A program made the translations under genes and the position numbers. Below, piece by piece: positions 4,787 through 29,146 of a DNA stretch of 54,594 nucleotides (the stretch's first letter is position 1; each line of letters opens with the position of its first letter). Under the pieces are notes generated by a model, which was not told the origin of the DNA, searched no databases, and was given only the letters and a program-made list of their open reading frames with translations. Source of the DNA: Candidatus Falkowbacteria bacterium CG10_big_fil_rev_8_21_14_0_10_39_11 (GTDB taxonomy: Bacteria > Patescibacteriota > Patescibacteriia > UBA11705); the NCBI GenBank assembly GCA_002773615.1, contig PFAP01000002.1, positions 1 to 54,594 on the forward strand, given 5' to 3'.

Positions 4787-5065
4787 ATGAGAAATTTCTG
4801 GGGATACCTGTATGCCATGTTGGCGCAGCTGGTTGTAAATTCAGATCTTCATTCGCCGTTTCCGATTTTTTGGAATGGTGAGTTTGAATTCGTTGAAAAG
4901 GCGTTGAAGATCAATTGGACCAAGACTTCCTGGTGCCGGTGGAAGATAAGTCTATCTTATACCTGTGATGGGGAAATTTACGGCGGAGAGGCGATTCTCA
5001 TGGCTCCGGAAGGATATTATTGTGAAACACACAGCCTTGGCAGTTCAGTCGAGGTGGCAGTCTAA
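4787..5065 (+). CDS. hypothetical protein
   Basis: ORF with upstream TTTACA-17-TATACT and downstream CAGTC/GACTG-T7 terminator. Confidence 0.6.
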   Translation: MRNFWGYLYAMLAQLVVNSDLHSPFPIFWNGEFEFVEKALKINWTKTSWCRWKISLSYTCDGEIYGGEAILMAPEGYYCETHSLGSSVEVAV

Positions 5066-5114
5066 TAAGACTGTTTTTTTGTAACAAAAAACTCGCATGT
5101 TTACGAGTTGAACG

Positions 5115-5327
5115 TTAGGTTGATTTCAATTTATTTCGATTTGAGTAACAAGCAAAGATGACAAATCCTACACTTAGGAATCCGGTCAATACCAGTTTGT
5201 ACTTGTCTTCATCCGTGTTGTTGCTAAAGACTTCTGGATAGGCTTTGATTGCATAAAGGGTATAGACGCTGCTTGCAATATAGAGAACCAAAAATCCAAT
5301 TTGTGCGAGCGAGATTAACCATTCCAT
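5115..5327 (-). CDS. small membrane protein
   Basis: two hydrophobic segments; SD AAAGGAAA; minus-strand promoter TTGACA-16-TATAAT. Confidence 0.65.
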   Translation of the reverse strand: MEWLISLAQIGFLVLYIASSVYTLYAIKAYPEVFSNNTDEDKYKLVLTGFLSVGFVIFACYSNRNKLKST

Positions 5328-9134: not shown

Positions 9135-10277
9135 ATGGAAAATATAAAGCCAAAAACTTGGATTGAATTAAGTCAAGAAAATATTAATTTTAATTTGGAT
9201 AAATTTCGAAACAGAGTAGGGGAGCAGGTTAAAATTATGGGAGTGGTCAAGTCAAATGCTTATGGGCATGGGGCGATTCAGGTTGCCCGGATGATTGAGA
9301 AAAAGGTAGATTACTTTGCGGTTGATTCGATTGACGAGGCGTTAGAAATCAAAAATGAAGTAGGGGGGAAGCCGATCCTCATTTTGGGATATACTTTGCA
9401 TGACAATTTGAAAATAGTGATTGAAAATGAGTTTGAACAGGTATTAGCAAACATTGAGACTCTTGAAAGATTGAAAAAAGAATCTGAAATATTAAAAAAG
9501 GCGGCCAAGGTTCATTTGAAGATTGAAACTGGTACCTCACGTCAAGGAATTTTTCAAGCAGATATTGATCAGTATTTGGATTTAATCAAAGCATCTAATT
9601 TTTTGCAGTTAGCTGGAATCTCAACTCATTTTGCCAATATTGAGGATACTACAGATTTTTCTTTTGCGATGAAACAATTGGATGTATATAAAAAAGCGGT
9701 TGAATATATTGAGCAAAAAGGTTTCTTTGGATTTTTGAAACATACGGCCAGTAGTGCCGCAGCGATTATTTATCCTGAAACTCATTTTGATGCGGTCAGA
9801 GTTGGAATAAGTCTTTACGGTTTGTGGTCAGCGCCTCAAACTTTTGTTACTTCCGGGCAAATAAATAATGGTTTTGCTTTGAAGCCGGTATTAACGTGGA
9901 AGACCATTGTGGCTCATATAAAAACATTACCCGCGGGGACATATGTTAGTTATGGCTGTACGGAAAAAGTGGAAAAGGAAACACAAGTGGCTGTATTGCC
10001 AATTGGCTATCGTGATGGTTTTGATCGTAAACTGTCTTCAATTGGCGAAGTTTTGATTCATGGCAAGCGATGTCGAGTTTTGGGTCGCGTGTGTATGAAT
10101 ATGGTTGTGGTAGACATAGATCATCTTGATGATGTCCAATTGGAAGATGATGTGGTTTTGATTGGACCGCAATATGATGAAGTGGTCACAGCTGAAGAGA
10201 TTGCAGCCAAGATCAACACCATTAACTATGAGGTAGTAACAAGAATTAATTGGGAGATTGAGAGACGTAAAATATAA
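9135..10277 (+). CDS. alr: alanine racemase
   Basis: VVKSNAYGHGAIQVA PLP lysine motif; VRVGISLYG; VLGRVCMNMVVVDI. Confidence 0.95.
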   Translation: MENIKPKTWIELSQENINFNLDKFRNRVGEQVKIMGVVKSNAYGHGAIQVARMIEKKVDYFAVDSIDEALEIKNEVGGKPILILGYTLHDNLKIVIENEFEQVLANIETLERLKKESEILKKAAKVHLKIETGTSRQGIFQADIDQYLDLIKASNFLQLAGISTHFANIEDTTDFSFAMKQLDVYKKAVEYIEQKGFFGFLKHTASSAAAIIYPETHFDAVRVGISLYGLWSAPQTFVTSGQINNGFALKPVLTWKTIVAHIKTLPAGTYVSYGCTEKVEKETQVAVLPIGYRDGFDRKLSSIGEVLIHGKRCRVLGRVCMNMVVVDIDHLDDVQLEDDVVLIGPQYDEVVTAEEIAAKINTINYEVVTRINWEIERRKI

Positions 10278-10445: not shown

Positions 10446-11264
10446 ATGGTGTCATATCTAAAAAAAGATTACAAAGATTTGGAGTTAGCCAACCCACGGA
10501 AGCTAAAAGAAGCCGGCCAAAAGAAACGGAAAATGTTTCGATTTTTATTGATTGCCATTTCTGTCGGGATGGTATTCTTTATTTATTGGTTATTTTTTTC
10601 GCCACAATTTCAGATTAGGGAAATCAATATTGGCGGCATTAATAAAATCAGTCAGGAAAAATTTGATAATATTGTCAATGAATACCGTTATAGTCGAAAG
10701 TATTATATCTTTCCCAGAAATAACTTGTTGATCTTTTCCGGTGATGGTTTGAGGGGCAGAATCGGTGAAAGTTATCTGCTTCAAAAGATTGATATCTACA
10801 AAGATTATCCCGGCTATCTGGAAATATGGGTGGAAGAAAAAGATTCCAATATTGTCTGGTTGACTGATGATTACTGTTTTCATTTGGATCAAGAAGGAGT
10901 CGCAATTGAAACCTGCGACAGTGCATCGCGATCCAATATTATAAAAATTAAGGATGTTAGTAATAATGCCGTATTGATCAGTCGGGGAGTAGTGCAGGCG
11001 GAAACTTTGGACAAAATGATTCGAGCCAAGGAGGCTTTGAGTGAATTTGTCACTCCGGATGTTTTTCATTATCAAGATGATGGACCATTTTCTTTGCGAG
11101 TTACTACCGATCAAACGTTTGATATTTATTTGAATCTTGAAGAGGGGATTGAGGCTCAAGTTCAGAGATTAAAATTACTTTTAACTCAAGATAAAATACA
11201 GCAAGATTTACCGCAAATTAAGTATTTTGATTTGAGATTTGGAAAAAAAATATACTATCAGTAA
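10446..11264 (+). CDS. FtsQ/DivIB-like cell division protein (POTRA)
   Basis: N-terminal TM followed by FQIREINIGGINKISQEKF POTRA-like region and C-terminal YFDLRFGKKIYYQ. Confidence 0.75.
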   Translation: MVSYLKKDYKDLELANPRKLKEAGQKKRKMFRFLLIAISVGMVFFIYWLFFSPQFQIREINIGGINKISQEKFDNIVNEYRYSRKYYIFPRNNLLIFSGDGLRGRIGESYLLQKIDIYKDYPGYLEIWVEEKDSNIVWLTDDYCFHLDQEGVAIETCDSASRSNIIKIKDVSNNAVLISRGVVQAETLDKMIRAKEALSEFVTPDVFHYQDDGPFSLRVTTDQTFDIYLNLEEGIEAQVQRLKLLLTQDKIQQDLPQIKYFDLRFGKKIYYQ

Positions 11265-12045
11265 TGTTGGTAAAGGATAAGACGAGATAAGTAAGTACAG
11301 CGAGACAAATTGAGTTTGAGAAACTGACTAACAAGGTCAGTTTTTGTTATATTATTCTCTAACCCCCCCCTCCATTCGTGTTTTACGACACTCGGTTTTT
11401 TTTGACACATTTTTGGAGAAAAGGGTGTTCTGTTTTGATTGATTTATCACAATAAGTAGGAAAAGTGGAAATAGAGGCGTAATTTTTTTTATTTTTGCGA
11501 TTGTAAATTTAAAATTTAAAAAATGTTAAAAAACATATAGTTACATATATAACAAATTTTTCTGTTGATTGTGGCCCATTTGTTGTATATTTTAGGTCAA
11601 AAAACAAGGCTCAAAATGGCGTTTTAAGGCCTTTATTCTCTCTTTTAGGGCTAATATACCTATGAATGAATTTAATTAGCTAGTTTTAGTTAATAAAGAC
11701 TTGCTATTCGTTAATGTTTTTAACTGAATTGAGGTTGTTATAGGGGCAGAACGCCACTTTATTTTTCGCTAAAATAAGCTAAAAAACGAGACTTAAAATT
11801 GCGCTATATGCGACGTTTTTTGTTTATGTGACTGCTAGTATTCAGGATGTCGGCTAAAATAAGCGAATATATGGTTGTCGTGCAATGATAGTAGTTATGT
11901 GTCGTAAAAGGTATATTTGGCGACACTAACAATTGTCATCCAGTTTGATATTTCTTCTTCTCCGATTGGGTTCTCGTAATTATATCTAAATTAATGTTTT
12001 ACTATTTTATCATTTGTGTATCCCCCTTTGTGTTATGTAAATTGT

Positions 12046-12074
12046 CTTGTATCATTTAGTAAAAAATAGTATAA
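12046..12074 (+). promoter_or_regulatory. promoter TTGTAT-17-TATAAT upstream of surface protein
   Basis: boxes at about 12046-12051 and 12069-12074. Confidence 0.65.
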
Positions 12075-12103
12075 TATAAACAAACAAAATTATAGACTCC
12101 CCT

Positions 12104-14218
12104 ATGAAAAGTAATTTATTTGTTTTTTTAAGAAACAAGAGTGTTTTAACAATTTTTTTTGGTGTTCTTTTGATATTGGCCTTGGTCAATGTTTTTTTAC
12201 CCCAAGCAATGGCTACGGCAACTGATATGCTTTTAAGTGAAGTAAGAATATCCCCTGCTGTTACAAGTCCAAATTTACAGGATAACCCATCTTTTGAGAC
12301 TTGGACCTCAAGCACCCTTGATGAGCCTTGGTTTGATGCAAATGATGATAGTATAGTCGATGTTGGAGAATATTGTGACTATGACAGTAGTGGTACTCGA
12401 ACGACTTATTCTCAAGCACTTTTTTCTACCGGAAGTTTATCTATTCTCCCCCTGGGTTCAACTTGCGGTACTTTTACGGAAGAAACAACTGATCCATACG
12501 TTGATACGTCTGCAATCAAGATGGCAACTGGAGCCTCTGAGTTACAAACGATTACAAATGTGGTTGGAAGTCAAATGTCCGTTTCAACCAGTACGGAATA
12601 TACAGTTTCATTTTACGCGAAAGGTGAAAGTGGATCAGAAAAGATTTATTTAACCATATATCTAAAGGATGGTTCAGCTGTTGAGTATAATTGGAACTTT
12701 ACATCTGGTGCATTTGACGCATATTCTGAGATACCAAGCATTGATCAATCAAATCTATTCACATTAACTACATCTTGGGCTCGATATACGTATACCTTTA
12801 CTTCAGATAAGACAGGTTCAATGGCGTTGAGTTTCTCATCTGGAACTGATGGTGCTTTACTCGGACGTGCAGACACAACCAATATGACAATTTATCTAGA
12901 TGCGGCTCAGGTAGAAGCAGCAAGCGCAGCAACCACATTTATGTCAGCTGATACAGCGAGTGCGACTTTTCTTGAATTATATAATCCAACTGATAGTGCG
13001 ATTGATATAGATAATTATATGGTCCAGTATCGTAAAGCGTCTGATGCTTGGGCTGAGTTTGGTGCTGTTACAACTACAACAAATGTTCCCTCCGGTGGTT
13101 TTTACTTGATTAAAGCTTCTGGTGGTGATCAGACCCTTACTGATGAGACTGCCTTTGATGTTGCTTATAATGCTTCTTCCGGAAATATGGCTTTTAGGGT
13201 GTGTACGAATTCGGCGGATTGTGCCAGTACAGTAATTGATACTCTGGGTCTTGCGTCTTCGCCCAGTTATGAAGGAGTTGCTTTTGATTTGAGTTCTTGG
13301 GATACATCCATGAGTTTTGAACGTAAAGCATATTCGGCATCGACGGTTGTCACGATGAGTAGTGGTGGTGGAGATGTTATTGCGGGTAATGGATATGATT
13401 CTGATGTTAATACAGATGATTTTGTTTTGCGCACAACACCAGATCCTCAATCATTAGCCAGCTCAGTAGAGGTTTATGTTGCTCCTGTGAGCACCACAAC
13501 TAGCAGTGCGGGCAACCAAAAAGCTGCCCAAGATTATTATGATGAATTGATACGCCAGCAAGAAGAATTGTTACAGGAACCAGATTTACCGGAGGTTAAT
13601 GAAGTGCCAGCGATTGATGAAACACCAGGTGAAACTGAAATAGATCAAACGGTGCCGGAAACTGACATTGAGAAAATAGTGCCGGTGGTTGAGTCTACAG
13701 TTCCTATTTTGCCGACCGAGAAAAATATTATTTCTGAAGCCTTGTCATTAAAAAATGTTGTTTTATTGATTTCAAGACTTCCCTTTGGCTCTGATTGGGA
13801 TTCGGTCCATTTTTTGAGTTATGGACTCAATGGGTTGCAAGACGGTTATACTCAAAGAGATCGTGTTGGTTTGTTGAACGATTATTATAATACAAATCAT
13901 GATTTACCCAGAAATGAATCTGATTGGGTAAATATTGTTCGTATGGCTGATGGTTTGATACCGAATGAAAAGGTTGTTGAATCTGAGCGGCGAGCCATAG
14001 AACAATTTGTTAGAATCTATAAACGATCAGTTGATTTTTCTAATAAGTCAGATGAAAAATTTGTTCATATGTTGGCTTATGGGCTTCGGGTGCAAGATCG
14101 AGATTTGCAACAAGAACAAAAAACTTTAACGTTATACGTGTCTGTGTTTGAAAGATTGCCTGATTCATCGTATCATTGGTCTGTTTTGAGAGCGATGGCT
14201 TATTCTGATGTACAATAA
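12104..14218 (+). CDS. secreted surface protein with lamin-tail-like region and C-terminal LP-DW-AYG repeat domain
   Basis: signal peptide, FLELYNPTDSAIDIDNYMVQYR lamin-tail-like, C-terminal domain shared with the 14420 protein. Confidence 0.85.
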   Translation: MKSNLFVFLRNKSVLTIFFGVLLILALVNVFLPQAMATATDMLLSEVRISPAVTSPNLQDNPSFETWTSSTLDEPWFDANDDSIVDVGEYCDYDSSGTRTTYSQALFSTGSLSILPLGSTCGTFTEETTDPYVDTSAIKMATGASELQTITNVVGSQMSVSTSTEYTVSFYAKGESGSEKIYLTIYLKDGSAVEYNWNFTSGAFDAYSEIPSIDQSNLFTLTTSWARYTYTFTSDKTGSMALSFSSGTDGALLGRADTTNMTIYLDAAQVEAASAATTFMSADTASATFLELYNPTDSAIDIDNYMVQYRKASDAWAEFGAVTTTTNVPSGGFYLIKASGGDQTLTDETAFDVAYNASSGNMAFRVCTNSADCASTVIDTLGLASSPSYEGVAFDLSSWDTSMSFERKAYSASTVVTMSSGGGDVIAGNGYDSDVNTDDFVLRTTPDPQSLASSVEVYVAPVSTTTSSAGNQKAAQDYYDELIRQQEELLQEPDLPEVNEVPAIDETPGETEIDQTVPETDIEKIVPVVESTVPILPTEKNIISEALSLKNVVLLISRLPFGSDWDSVHFLSYGLNGLQDGYTQRDRVGLLNDYYNTNHDLPRNESDWVNIVRMADGLIPNEKVVESERRAIEQFVRIYKRSVDFSNKSDEKFVHMLAYGLRVQDRDLQQEQKTLTLYVSVFERLPDSSYHWSVLRAMAYSDVQ

Positions 14219-24756: not shown

Positions 24757-26298
24757 CTACTTTTTGCTTAATTCCAGTATGGCCTCTTTTAGGCGTTGCG
24801 TTGTTCTGTCTTTGCCCAGGACGTGGGCGATTTCAAATGGACCCGGTGATTTCTCTTGTCCGGAGAGAGCGACTCGCATCGGCCATAAAACATCACCGTT
24901 TTGGAGGTTGTTATCTTCAATGATTTTTTTTATCTCTTTTTCAATGTTTTCAGCCGAGAAATCTTCATTTGGTACGCTGTGTATTGTTTCCAATATGTAT
25001 TGAAGGGCTTGGAGCGTAGTTTTGTGGTCTGATTTTTTGAATATGAGCGTTTGGGAGTCAAAATTTAATTTTGATGGAAAAACAAATTGGATTGCGTCAG
25101 AAATTTCATTGGTTTTTTTGATTCGGTTCTTTTCCAGTGAACAATAGTTTTTTATATCGTTGAATGAAATCTCTTTATTTGTCAGGTTGTTGATGTATTG
25201 ATTTTCACTCTTTGGTGAGATTAATTTTGCTTCAATTAGGAATGGCAAGCATTCGGTAGCGAAGTTTTCGTCAGATAGTTCTCTCAGATACATACCGTTG
25301 ATCCAATCTAATTTTTCTAAATCAAATATGGCGCCTTTTTTGTGGACATTATCGAGTGAAAATTGTTTGATCATTTCATCTACAGTGTATATCTCTTGTT
25401 CTGTACCGGCGTTCCATCCCAGTAAGGCAATAAAGTTGATCAAAGCATTTTTAATATATCCAGATTTGATAAAATCTTTGACTGAGACGTCGCCATCTCG
25501 TTTACTCATTTTCTTTTTACTTTGGTTTAGAATTTGCGGTAGATGGGCAAACCTCGGTGGCTGCCAATCAAAAGCATCATATAACATTACATGCTTGGGG
25601 GTGCTGGAGATCCATTCGTCACCACGCATGACATGAGTGATTTTCATCAAATGGTCGTCAACGATGTTGGCAAAGTGATAGGTCGGAAATTGATCAGCCT
25701 TGATCAGAACAAAGTCATCCAAATCTTTGGTATTGACCTTGATGGTGCCTCGAATCTCATCGTCAAAAACAACCTCTTTGTCTTCTGGCATTTTGAAGCG
25801 GATAACTCTGGATTCGTTATAAGTTAATTTTTTGTGTATTTCTTCTTTTGATAAGTGGCGGCATAAACCATCATACTTTGGTGGCAGTTTGTCTTTTTTT
25901 TGTTGTTCGCGAAGTTCGTTAATTCTTTCTTTGGAGCAAAAACAGTAATAGGCTTTATTTTTATCTAACAGAGTCTGAATATGTTTGGTGTATATGTCTA
26001 ATCTTTCAGATTGGATATAGGGACCGTAGTCCCCTTTTTGGATGATTTTCCCGTCAACGATAAATGGTCCTTCGTCATAGCTGAAATCGGCCCATTCAAG
26101 AGTCTTGAGTAAGTCTTCCAGTGCGCCGTCGACATATCTGGTGCGATCTGTGTCTTCAATGCGGACAATAAAAGTACCATCATTATGACGAGCAAAGAGA
26201 TAGTTGTATAAAATTGTTCTTAGGTTACCGACATGGACAAAACCGGTTGGACTGGGGGCGATACGGACGCGGACGTTAGTTGGGGTCTTTGAGGACAT
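24757..26298 (-). CDS. gltX: glutamyl-tRNA synthetase
   Basis: PSPTGFVHVGNLRT (HIGH-like), RIEDTDRTRYVDGA, KKMSKRDGD. Confidence 0.96.
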   Translation of the reverse strand: MSSKTPTNVRVRIAPSPTGFVHVGNLRTILYNYLFARHNDGTFIVRIEDTDRTRYVDGALEDLLKTLEWADFSYDEGPFIVDGKIIQKGDYGPYIQSERLDIYTKHIQTLLDKNKAYYCFCSKERINELREQQKKDKLPPKYDGLCRHLSKEEIHKKLTYNESRVIRFKMPEDKEVVFDDEIRGTIKVNTKDLDDFVLIKADQFPTYHFANIVDDHLMKITHVMRGDEWISSTPKHVMLYDAFDWQPPRFAHLPQILNQSKKKMSKRDGDVSVKDFIKSGYIKNALINFIALLGWNAGTEQEIYTVDEMIKQFSLDNVHKKGAIFDLEKLDWINGMYLRELSDENFATECLPFLIEAKLISPKSENQYINNLTNKEISFNDIKNYCSLEKNRIKKTNEISDAIQFVFPSKLNFDSQTLIFKKSDHKTTLQALQYILETIHSVPNEDFSAENIEKEIKKIIEDNNLQNGDVLWPMRVALSGQEKSPGPFEIAHVLGKDRTTQRLKEAILELSKK

Positions 26299-26624: not shown

Positions 26625-26653
26625 TTGACACTATTGAAAAACTATGCTATAAT
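26625..26653 (+). promoter_or_regulatory. perfect consensus promoter TTGACA-17-TATAAT (distal)
   Basis: TTGACA 26625-26630, TATAAT 26648-26653. Confidence 0.85.
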
Positions 26654-26769
26654 GGTTTATTAAGCTGAGAAATTTGTGAGTTCATTATAAGACATCTGGA
26701 TCATTTTGTTGAGGCAACGCCTCTCTATAGTATATAGCTTGTCGTTATATTATATAGATATTTTTAGCC

Positions 26770-26798
26770 TTGACAAAATAATTTAAGTGTGTTATAAT
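26770..26798 (+). promoter_or_regulatory. perfect consensus promoter TTGACA-17-TATAAT (proximal)
   Basis: TTGACA 26770-26775, TATAAT 26793-26798. Confidence 0.9.
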
Positions 26799-26804
26799 AT
26801 TCAC

Positions 26805-27095
26805 ATGATCATTAAAATGTGAGGTAATTTAAAGCAACAACTCTTATTGAATTTGCACATTGTCATTCACGGGTTTAACCCGGGAATTTACAAGGTCAAA
26901 TTCAATGAGGGTTGTGAGATAGTGTCTCCTACCCTGTAGCGTCGCGAAAGGTTCGGCTCGGATTCGTTGATTCACTCTGGTCCTAACATAAACAGGACCT
27001 TTGGGCTATTGCAGCCGACAAACGTGAAATCAACTTTTCCATGGCCGGACCGATCACCTTTCGAATGGGGTTAAATCCCCTTTATTGGAGGATCT
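26805..27095 (+). ncRNA. structured 5' leader RNA (candidate cis-regulatory RNA)
   Basis: 18-bp stem 26838-26855/26897-26914 enclosing CGGG/CCCG hairpin; stem GTTGATTCAC/GTGAAATCAAC (26966-26975/27024-27034) enclosing GGTCCT/AGGACC and GGCT/AGCC hairpins; GGGG/CCCC hairpin just upstream of the SD. Confidence 0.7.
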
Positions 27096-27097
27096 AC

Positions 27098-28219
27098 ATG
27101 TCCAACGTGAAGCAGGCCACCGAGATTCAGTTCTCCTACCCGACGTCGATTCAGGCTCTCGTGGCCGAAAACGGAAGCGCGTTCAATCCGAACGCGCTCG
27201 TCCAGTCGGAACTGTTCGTGACCGCGGGCCAGACGCAGGCGCCGCGACCGTTCCAAGCGCGCTATGCGCGCGTGCTGGTCGACAGCGGGCGTCTGTTCAA
27301 CGCGAACGACTCCGGAGTGGTGCTCCGGAGCGTTGGCGCGGTCAACATGAAACTGAGAGCGGCCGGGAAGCCCCTGGTCGACGGCAGTTTCATTCCGCTC
27401 GCCGAGGCGCTCGGCATTCGCCGGGCCCGTGACCAGTACGGTGACGACCTCGAGTCGCTGCTCATCAGCGACGACGAGAAGGTCATCCTGACCGGAGAGG
27501 AGGTCCGTGACCTGGACCTCGATCCCATCACGCTCCAGGAGCGTATGGGTTCCGGTGCCGGAGTGATGGATTTGGAGCGTGTCGCCCGCTGGGAACAGCG
27601 GATGCGCCTCTACGAGGCCGCGATCGAGGCGAACTCGGCGATCTTCGCCGAGCTCAAGGGCAACATCGAACAGGACACGCGGAACGGATGGAGTGAGGCG
27701 ATCTGCCAGACCACCGAGGCGTGGCTCAAGTTCGTGGAAGCCATGAACGCCTTCGCGGAGGAGATGGGCTTCAAGTGGGACGGTACGCCGGCCCCGCCGA
27801 CCCCCCCCGCCTTCCCGCTCGCCGTCCTTCGCATCTACGCGAGGGGCAAGGGCCTCCGGTTCGTCCTTCTCGTCCCGGACAATCGCCACAAGGCGGCGGC
27901 GATGATGAAGTGGAGCGAGCAGATGGAGCACGCTCGCGAGCCGGAGAACTATCGGGACTTCACCGACAAGGTTCTGGCTCCCCTGAACATCATGCAGGCT
28001 CGCCTGCGTGAGAACGGGGTTCCGCAGGACGCTCCCACCTTCCAGGACAAGGCGGAAGTGCTCACCACGAACTTCCTCAGCGTCGCTGGGGTGTCGCTGG
28101 AAGAGCTGGCCGATCAGTCCCGGGCGCCGCGCGAGGACCGGCCCCGTGGCAAGGGTAAGCGCGGTGACCGTCACTCGCGCAGGTCCCAGGGTCACCAGTG
28201 GGTGCCCAACGCCGACTGA
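27098..28219 (+). CDS. GC-rich orphan protein with basic Arg/Gly-rich C-terminal tail
   Basis: SD TTGGAGG; ORF about two-thirds GC by eye in an AT-rich window; tail RAPREDRPRGKGKRGDRHSRRSQGHQ; no recognised domain. Confidence 0.8.
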   Translation: MSNVKQATEIQFSYPTSIQALVAENGSAFNPNALVQSELFVTAGQTQAPRPFQARYARVLVDSGRLFNANDSGVVLRSVGAVNMKLRAAGKPLVDGSFIPLAEALGIRRARDQYGDDLESLLISDDEKVILTGEEVRDLDLDPITLQERMGSGAGVMDLERVARWEQRMRLYEAAIEANSAIFAELKGNIEQDTRNGWSEAICQTTEAWLKFVEAMNAFAEEMGFKWDGTPAPPTPPAFPLAVLRIYARGKGLRFVLLVPDNRHKAAAMMKWSEQMEHAREPENYRDFTDKVLAPLNIMQARLRENGVPQDAPTFQDKAEVLTTNFLSVAGVSLEELADQSRAPREDRPRGKGKRGDRHSRRSQGHQWVPNAD

Positions 28220-28289
28220 GACCGCTGAGTTTGAGACGACCTCACATTCCCCGTGATCCTTCCGCCTCTTCCGAGGCAAGAACGAAAAT

Positions 28290-28320
28290 AAGATCCAAGC
28301 AACCGCTTGGATCTTTTCCC
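28290..28320 (+). terminator. strong intrinsic terminator
   Basis: AAGATCCAAGC-aacc-GCTTGGATCTT then TTCCCTTTT. Confidence 0.85.
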
Positions 28321-28552
28321 TTTTAAATAATTCTAAGAAGTAAGGCATTATACTTAATGAATTGTCATTGAAGCTTTGCTGGGCTTATCTTATTGCTGAA
28401 TAATTTATCCTTTTATTTTTTTATGATGTTTATTGACTTTAGGCTATCTTGATTGTATGATAAAAATAGAGCTATTTCACTAACAGAGCAATCATCTGCT
28501 GGGAGGCGCAGATTGAGACTCTATCAATGCACGTACTTTCTCGGAGGTGACC

Positions 28553-29146
28553 ATGTCTAAAGAAAAATGTGAGCCTGGTCGTTTTTTTAGAGTCACCGAT
28601 GACTTCTGGCGGGATCTACTATCGAGACAAATGAAGTTCCACCAAGGTGTTGATGGCTTTGATATCGCCGAAATTTTTTCGGCTCGAGACAGACGCCTGG
28701 TGTTCATGGTTCCTAGATTGTCGAGCGACATTGGCGCCATTGATATGAAGCTGGTGCAAAGTATTGTGTCAAGTCCAAGTCAGTGTCAGGACTTTGATCG
28801 TATTCCTTTCTCTGTGCAAATTTTGAAAACGGTTGGGTTGGTTTATTTCGTGCAGATGACGGTTGATGATTTGAAGGTTGCGGTATTAATTGCAGTGCCC
28901 TATTCCAAATATAGCCAGGAATATGATGGATATATTGGTTTTATTAAATTGGATAAGGTCAAGTGGTCGGATGTAGGGAAAATTGAATTTGATTCTGATG
29001 ACCATTCTATGGTTTATCGAGATTATGTGTCTGGTGATATGGAAATATGTCTGATGGTCAAGAAAGAACACAAGGACACTAGAATCTCCTTGTCACCATC
29101 CATTAGCATGAGTACAGATGGCCGGAGATTTATTCGAGTATCATAA
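28553..29146 (+). CDS. hypothetical protein
   Basis: SD GGAGGTG; promoter TTGACT-17-TATGAT; terminator ACAGACT/AGTCTGT-T5. Confidence 0.75.
   Translation: MSKEKCEPGRFFRVTDDFWRDLLSRQMKFHQGVDGFDIAEIFSARDRRLVFMVPRLSSDIGAIDMKLVQSIVSSPSQCQDFDRIPFSVQILKTVGLVYFVQMTVDDLKVAVLIAVPYSKYSQEYDGYIGFIKLDKVKWSDVGKIEFDSDDHSMVYRDYVSGDMEICLMVKKEHKDTRISLSPSISMSTDGRRFIRVS

Follow-up and report, generated by a model that had tools for sequence, protein, structure and literature searches.

A structured 5′ leader before a GC3-rich orphan gene divergent from gltX in a Falkowbacteria genome

In principle, a structured 5′ leader can act on its message in several ways. Leaders of the ompA type carry 5′ stem-loops that stabilise bacterial mRNAs, and the leaders of pnp, rnc and the T7 early mRNAs are processed by RNase III. 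The leader examined here comes from an uncultured, ultra-small bacterium. Like the ompA type, it places a strong 5′-proximal stem before a strongly promoted gene, but here the closing stem of about 19 bp encloses a further arm, a second domain with several hairpins comes after it, and the present leader and the ompA type are not homologous. It resembles the pnp, rnc and T7 leaders in its long, near-perfect stem of nearly two helical turns, and each of the order's ten genomes has a gene for RNase III (PF14622 above the cut-off); however, the gene that follows is an orphan rather than a ribonuclease or phage gene. Ribosomal-protein leaders, such as that of S15 (RF00114), also precede a gene for a protein with a basic tail, but the present gene is not ribosomal. 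T-boxes and amino-acid riboswitches share with it a structured leader near an aminoacyl-tRNA synthetase gene; here, the leader lies on the strand opposite gltX and has no Rfam match, and is thus not assigned to the T-boxes.

Promoters and fold of the leader

Among 93 genomes, a similar leader and protein occur in only one, G001, of the same genus (Falkowbacteria MAG UBA11705). Searches at the level of DNA, protein and covariance models gave no further homologue. The features of the locus in the window, as the whole stretch of 54,594 nucleotides is called below, are these:

24757 to 26298, − strand: gltX, the divergent neighbour and marker of the locus across the order
26625 to 26653, + strand: promoter P1, TTGACA-17-TATAAT with TG, a perfect match, kept in G001
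26684 to 26712, − strand: leftward promoter-like site, TCAACA-17-TATAAT, matching at 10 of 12 positions, in a block kept in G001
26725 to 26757, no strand: dyad TATAGTATATA-GCTTGTCGT-TATATTATATA between the divergent promoters, its centre identical in G001
26770 to 26798, + strand: main promoter P2, TTGACA-17-TATAAT with TG, a perfect match, kept in G001
26805 to 27097, + strand: structured 5′ leader, predicted to begin about 7 nt past the −10 hexamer and to reach the start codon
26837 to 26915, + strand: domain 1, a 19-bp closing stem (26837-26855/26897-26915) and an inner arm
26860-26863/26890-26893, 26865-26868/26884-26887 and 26870-26873/26879-26882, + strand: inner arm of domain 1
26950 to 27051, + strand: domain 2, with an outer helix (26950-26957/27044-27051) and a stem (26966-26975/27024-27034)
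26979 to 26999 and 27004 to 27016, + strand: hairpins of domain 2
27067 to 27080, + strand: GGGG/CCCC hairpin upstream of the Shine-Dalgarno sequence, present in the window and G001, without covariation
27087 to 27091, + strand: Shine-Dalgarno sequence GGAGG, kept in G001
27098 to 28219, + strand: GC3-rich orphan gene for a protein of 373 aa (P0001), GC3 0.85
28290 to 28315, + strand: intrinsic terminator, an 11-bp stem with a T-rich tail

P1 and P2 form a tandem pair of perfect sigma-70 promoters that the earlier note on this DNA had missed; the window has seven promoter sites with at most one mismatch, where 0.8 would be expected. A GTTA-like tetranucleotide a few bases past TATAAT seems to open many of the transcripts behind consensus promoters and is a possible initiation motif. 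The leftward site is an inverted copy of P2, with which it pairs over 32 positions, and has the dyad between itself and P2; gltX and the orphan gene may therefore have back-to-back promoters, the leftward site being possibly that of gltX and the dyad a possible operator. Promoter-like sites placed back to back make up an inverted repeat of 115 bp around a central dyad, both in the window (26684-26798) and at L006 (about 9205-9370). The 9-nt centre of the dyad, GCTTGTCGT, is unchanged in the congener, and the flanking pair changes symmetrically, from A..T to C..G.

The leader, of about 290 nt, has a predicted minimum free energy of −105.2 kcal/mol (26805-27095), against −73.5 (sd 4.7) for 200 dinucleotide shuffles, none of which is as low (z −6.74). 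The fold of the G001 leader has a z of −5.65. The individual helices described in the earlier note are all present. Its 18-bp stem with two G-U pairs (26838-26855/26897-26914) gains a nineteenth pair from A26837-U26915, and encloses the TTGT/ACAA, ATTC/GAAT and CGGG/CCCG helices. Further downstream, GTTGATTCAC/GTGAAATCAAC corresponds to 26966-26975 with 27024-27034 and has one bulged A, GGTCCT/AGGACC to 26979-26984 with 26994-26999, GGCT/AGCC to 27004-27007 with 27013-27016, and GGGG/CCCC to 27067-27070 with 27077-27080. An 8-bp outer helix of domain 2, GGTTCGGC (26950-26957) with GCCGGACC (27044-27051), can be added to that list. The longest helix exceeds those of 30 of 30 shuffles, and helices as strong as the domain 1 stem with a loop of at least 20 number three in the whole 54.6-kb window and seven in 400 kb of G001. 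As a predicted fold, the structure is real.

Alignment of the window and G001 leaders keeps 38 of 38 core pairs; in four of these both partners have changed, and in two a single partner. The domain 1 stem retains all 19 pairs, with one compensatory and two one-sided changes, and the domain 2 hairpins all 10, with three compensatory changes. When the partners were slid by 1-3 columns as a control, 34-47% of cells paired and no double change appeared. Column shuffles, with two sequences only, reached the observed counts in 30 of 500 cases; covariation is thus support, not proof. The check for covariation proposed in the earlier note yields four compensatory changes, with every core pair intact, from just one alignable homologue. 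Column-by-column pairing with G001 is not found for the lower part of the domain 2 stem, the apical hairpin of domain 1 or the outer helix of domain 2. G001 has an apical hairpin of its own at the corresponding place, in a shifted register (AACCTGAA/TTTCAGGTT), keeps the inner arm of domain 1 in a shifted register, and builds its own outer helix, likewise in a shifted register, from other letters at the corresponding place (GGTC..GACC with GGTC..GACC). Unpaired letters of domain 2 are shared as well, namely ACTCTGG, ACATA and GACAAA.

At gathering thresholds, Rfam 15 gives no match anywhere in the window. Relaxed searches return only sub-threshold matches, which in the leader region are to microRNA, S15-leader and SR1 families; the G001 leader, too, has none but sub-threshold matches. 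The S15-leader match in the window (RF00114) scores 12.5 bits against a gathering threshold of 39.5, is at chance level, and overlaps the 5′ arm of domain 1 as well as the promoter. A phage search gave a single 44-nt match (E 0.04), located upstream of the leader. The proposal of a structured RNA outside the known families is borne out by these searches. That of a novel family holds as far as Rfam goes, but its reach is narrow: in 381 genomes of the class, a covariance model built on domain 1 retrieves just the window genome and its congener, and in the ten genomes of the order the model of domain 2 retrieves just the same two.

The earlier note also envisaged a switch in which GGACC at 27047-27051 competes for GGTCC, and this finds no support. 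In the predicted fold, GGACC is paired with GGTTC (26950-26954); G001 reads AGACC at this place and uses other letters for its equivalent helix. The sole terminator-like site before the gene is a weak GGGG..CCC hairpin at chance level, whose T-run is missing in G001, and the predicted accessibility of the Shine-Dalgarno sequence varies between genomes. More generally, a lineage-specific riboswitch or other ligand-sensing leader that controls translation would agree with the branched junction fold, the conserved joining letters of domain 2 and the structure near the Shine-Dalgarno sequence. Against this, only two species have the junction, which the leaders of other genera lack, and the window and G001 share no expression platform, that is, no conserved terminator or helix sequestering the Shine-Dalgarno sequence. 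This explanation is very unlikely, and the orphan gene points to no metabolite.

An independent small RNA transcribed from P2, with the gene expressed separately or by read-through, would fit the strong promoter directly upstream and the compact fold. However, the interval from leader to gene contains no credible terminator and, in the promoter scan, no separate promoter for the gene, and the Shine-Dalgarno sequence and start codon follow directly; this is a most improbable account.

The gltX locus across the order

Promoter, leader and orphan gene stand divergent from gltX in all nine checkable genomes of the order: the window genome (G000), G001 to G004 and G006 to G009. G005 was left out because its contig ends too early. 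Each locus combines a consensus-like promoter and a leader, 57-352 nt long, with a gene that is GC-rich in nearly every case (GC3 0.62-0.97, lowest in G009). In seven genomes from other orders of the class, no comparable rise in GC is seen at gltX, and one of the seven has a consensus promoter. No Rfam family reaches its gathering threshold at seven further gltX loci from the order.

Outside the genus, the leaders are unalignable. Nevertheless, six of them (G000, G001, G002, G004, G006 and G008) have a longest helix beyond that of any shuffle, spanning 19-28 positions, some with mismatches (20-28 in G002, G004, G006 and G008). The helix of G007 is marginal, being matched by two of 60 shuffles, and those of G003 and G009 are ordinary, with promoter and gene kept; the stem is therefore not indispensable. 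The folds have z values from −2.8 to −7.0 in eight genomes and +0.75 in G009. In 400 kb of G001, thirteen other leaders that follow consensus promoters are short and have weak helices, so that the long stem belongs to the gltX locus and not to strong promoters generally. Together with the rarity of such helices, this makes a long double-stranded leader a recurring property of the locus.

These comparisons bear on whether the inverted repeats act as DNA, or are neutral intergenic palindromes of a sort common in these genomes, the fold having no function as RNA. The 115-bp promoter dyad just upstream points in this direction, as do the two genomes of the order that lack the long helix and the fact that only two sequences can be aligned. 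Conversely, the genomes contain few helices of this kind, three helices carry compensatory changes, and the long helix recurs at the same place in leaders that cannot be aligned. A role in DNA, or none, is distinctly unlikely.

The proteins of the locus show no similarity between genera by phmmer, except for a weak match between G006 and G008, and hhalign does not support homology of the G002 protein to P0001 (probability 1.2%). They may be orthologues that have diverged to an extreme degree, or replacements. The G002 gene has its start on contig C7, beside gltX, and its body on C6, which we infer to be one gene. At the C6 end (L016, about 10970-12421), lexA-like and pgpA-like GC-rich pieces are separated by runs of N; this end looks like a scaffolding misjoin, because gltX is on C7. 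In G008 (contig C18; L077, about 5010-5130), a short tandem duplication breaks the frame of the GC-rich gene and is either an assembly error or a real mutation. The orphan proteins of G007 (L076, 2073-3587) and G003 (L073, 2422-3735) have Cys/His clusters resembling small zinc-binding motifs, and that of G007 has a weak PADLOC match (PDC-M01B, E 0.001).

The orphan gene and its codon usage

Searches of Pfam, NCBIfam, PHROGs, PADLOC and the PDB gave no match for P0001, which is 42% identical to its G001 counterpart, P0002. Its AlphaFold model (mean pLDDT 39.5) is unusable. P0001, P0002 and the G002 protein have basic tails, and the C-terminal tail of P0001 is probably disordered as well as basic.

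These tails are one reason to consider that P0001 might bind domain 2 and repress its own translation, in the manner of ribosomal proteins. Leader and protein co-occur in both species, and the conserved unpaired letters of domain 2 would suit a binding site. On the other side, P0001 has no known RNA-binding domain, its structure model gives no help, and the proteins of the locus share little or no similarity between genera. Autoregulation is rather unlikely on balance. It and the lineage-specific ligand sensor are the main rivals of the favoured reading.

The codon usage of the gene stands apart. GC3 is 0.85 for the P0001 gene and 0.97 for its G001 counterpart, against 0.29-0.50 for neighbouring genes; GC climbs past the start codon and drops past the stop codon. 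The GC3 statistics cover 400 kb of G001 and the window; in the former, the 95th percentile is 0.61. In this stretch of G001, GC3-rich genes are over-represented behind consensus extended −10 promoters (6 of 14 against 4 of 416; Fisher p 7e-8, with heuristic gene calls and a GC3 cut-off of 0.72 picked after the data had been seen). Ordinary translational selection was rejected as the cause, since EF-Tu (0.40), EF-G (0.43) and L14 (0.34) of G001 reach only 0.34-0.43. Recent transfer from a GC-rich donor is disfavoured, as the high GC persists despite a protein divergence of 58% and does not extend beyond the coding sequence. An antisense ORF (27071-28348), with a 36% match to an antisense ORF of G001, was judged a shadow of the GC-rich codons: the conserved sense frame would itself give 36%, and the high-GC position would be the first codon position.

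In G001 and related genomes, about 2% of genes are GC3-rich orphans, several of them lipoprotein-like and most right behind consensus promoters. On contig C1 of G001 (L036-L055), they lie at about 128518, 143349, 145817, 228930, 263790, 345536, 347037 and 391200; others are found at L018, L022 and L025 in other genomes. The next gene in the window (28553-29146) has no Pfam family above threshold; its counterparts share 53% identity with it in G001 and 22% in G002, and it keeps its place after the GC-rich gene.

A proposed stabilising or processed leader and its meaning

As the window and G001 share no terminator or Shine-Dalgarno switch, and as RNase III is present in all ten genomes, the reading favoured is that of a stabilising and/or RNase III-processed 5′ leader of a strongly transcribed mRNA; the 19-bp stem of the window supplies the long double-stranded element. 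This is put forward tentatively, with somewhat less than an even chance of being correct. Counting against it are the ordinary helices of G003 and G009 and the marginal one of G007, together with a domain 2 more elaborate than a 5′ clamp requires, whose conserved unpaired letters would suit a binding site as well. RNA polymerase would start at the perfect extended −10 promoter P2, and the leader would fold into domain 1, closed by its stem of about 19 bp, and the multi-hairpin domain 2, after which it would present the strong Shine-Dalgarno sequence. The long 5′ stem may then shield the message from 5′-end-dependent decay and/or be trimmed by RNase III. The outcome would be a message, long-lived or defined, that encodes a highly divergent protein of this lineage beside gltX. 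The helices, the covariation with one homologue, the promoter sequence, the synteny in the order and the recurring long helices of leaders that do not align are seen directly; transcription, its high level and either role of the stem are inferred.

A new lineage-specific structured leader would be modest news alone; the odd part is the locus. Position, promoter class and, in most genomes, a long leader helix are conserved without sequence, which we cannot explain, and the codon usage likewise has no ordinary explanation. A limited literature search, which is no proof of novelty, found no description of this pattern at gltX. One speculative interpretation, itself far from probable, is that in this order of Patescibacteria selection maintains the architecture at gltX, the sequences of leader and protein being replaced almost entirely, and that the message is adapted to another translation setting. 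Since the GC3 codon usage is opposite to that of EF-Tu, the message would suit a setting other than the ordinary one, for example a special growth state or a host cell. If true, what is kept would be a promoter of the strongest class, usually a long double-stranded leader, and a GC3 of up to 97% in AT-rich genomes. Should RNA-seq confirm the wider pattern of conserved architecture and codon usage, the locus would give a clue to which genes are most strongly expressed in these uncultured, probably episymbiotic bacteria, and to why GC-rich genes persist in AT-rich genomes.
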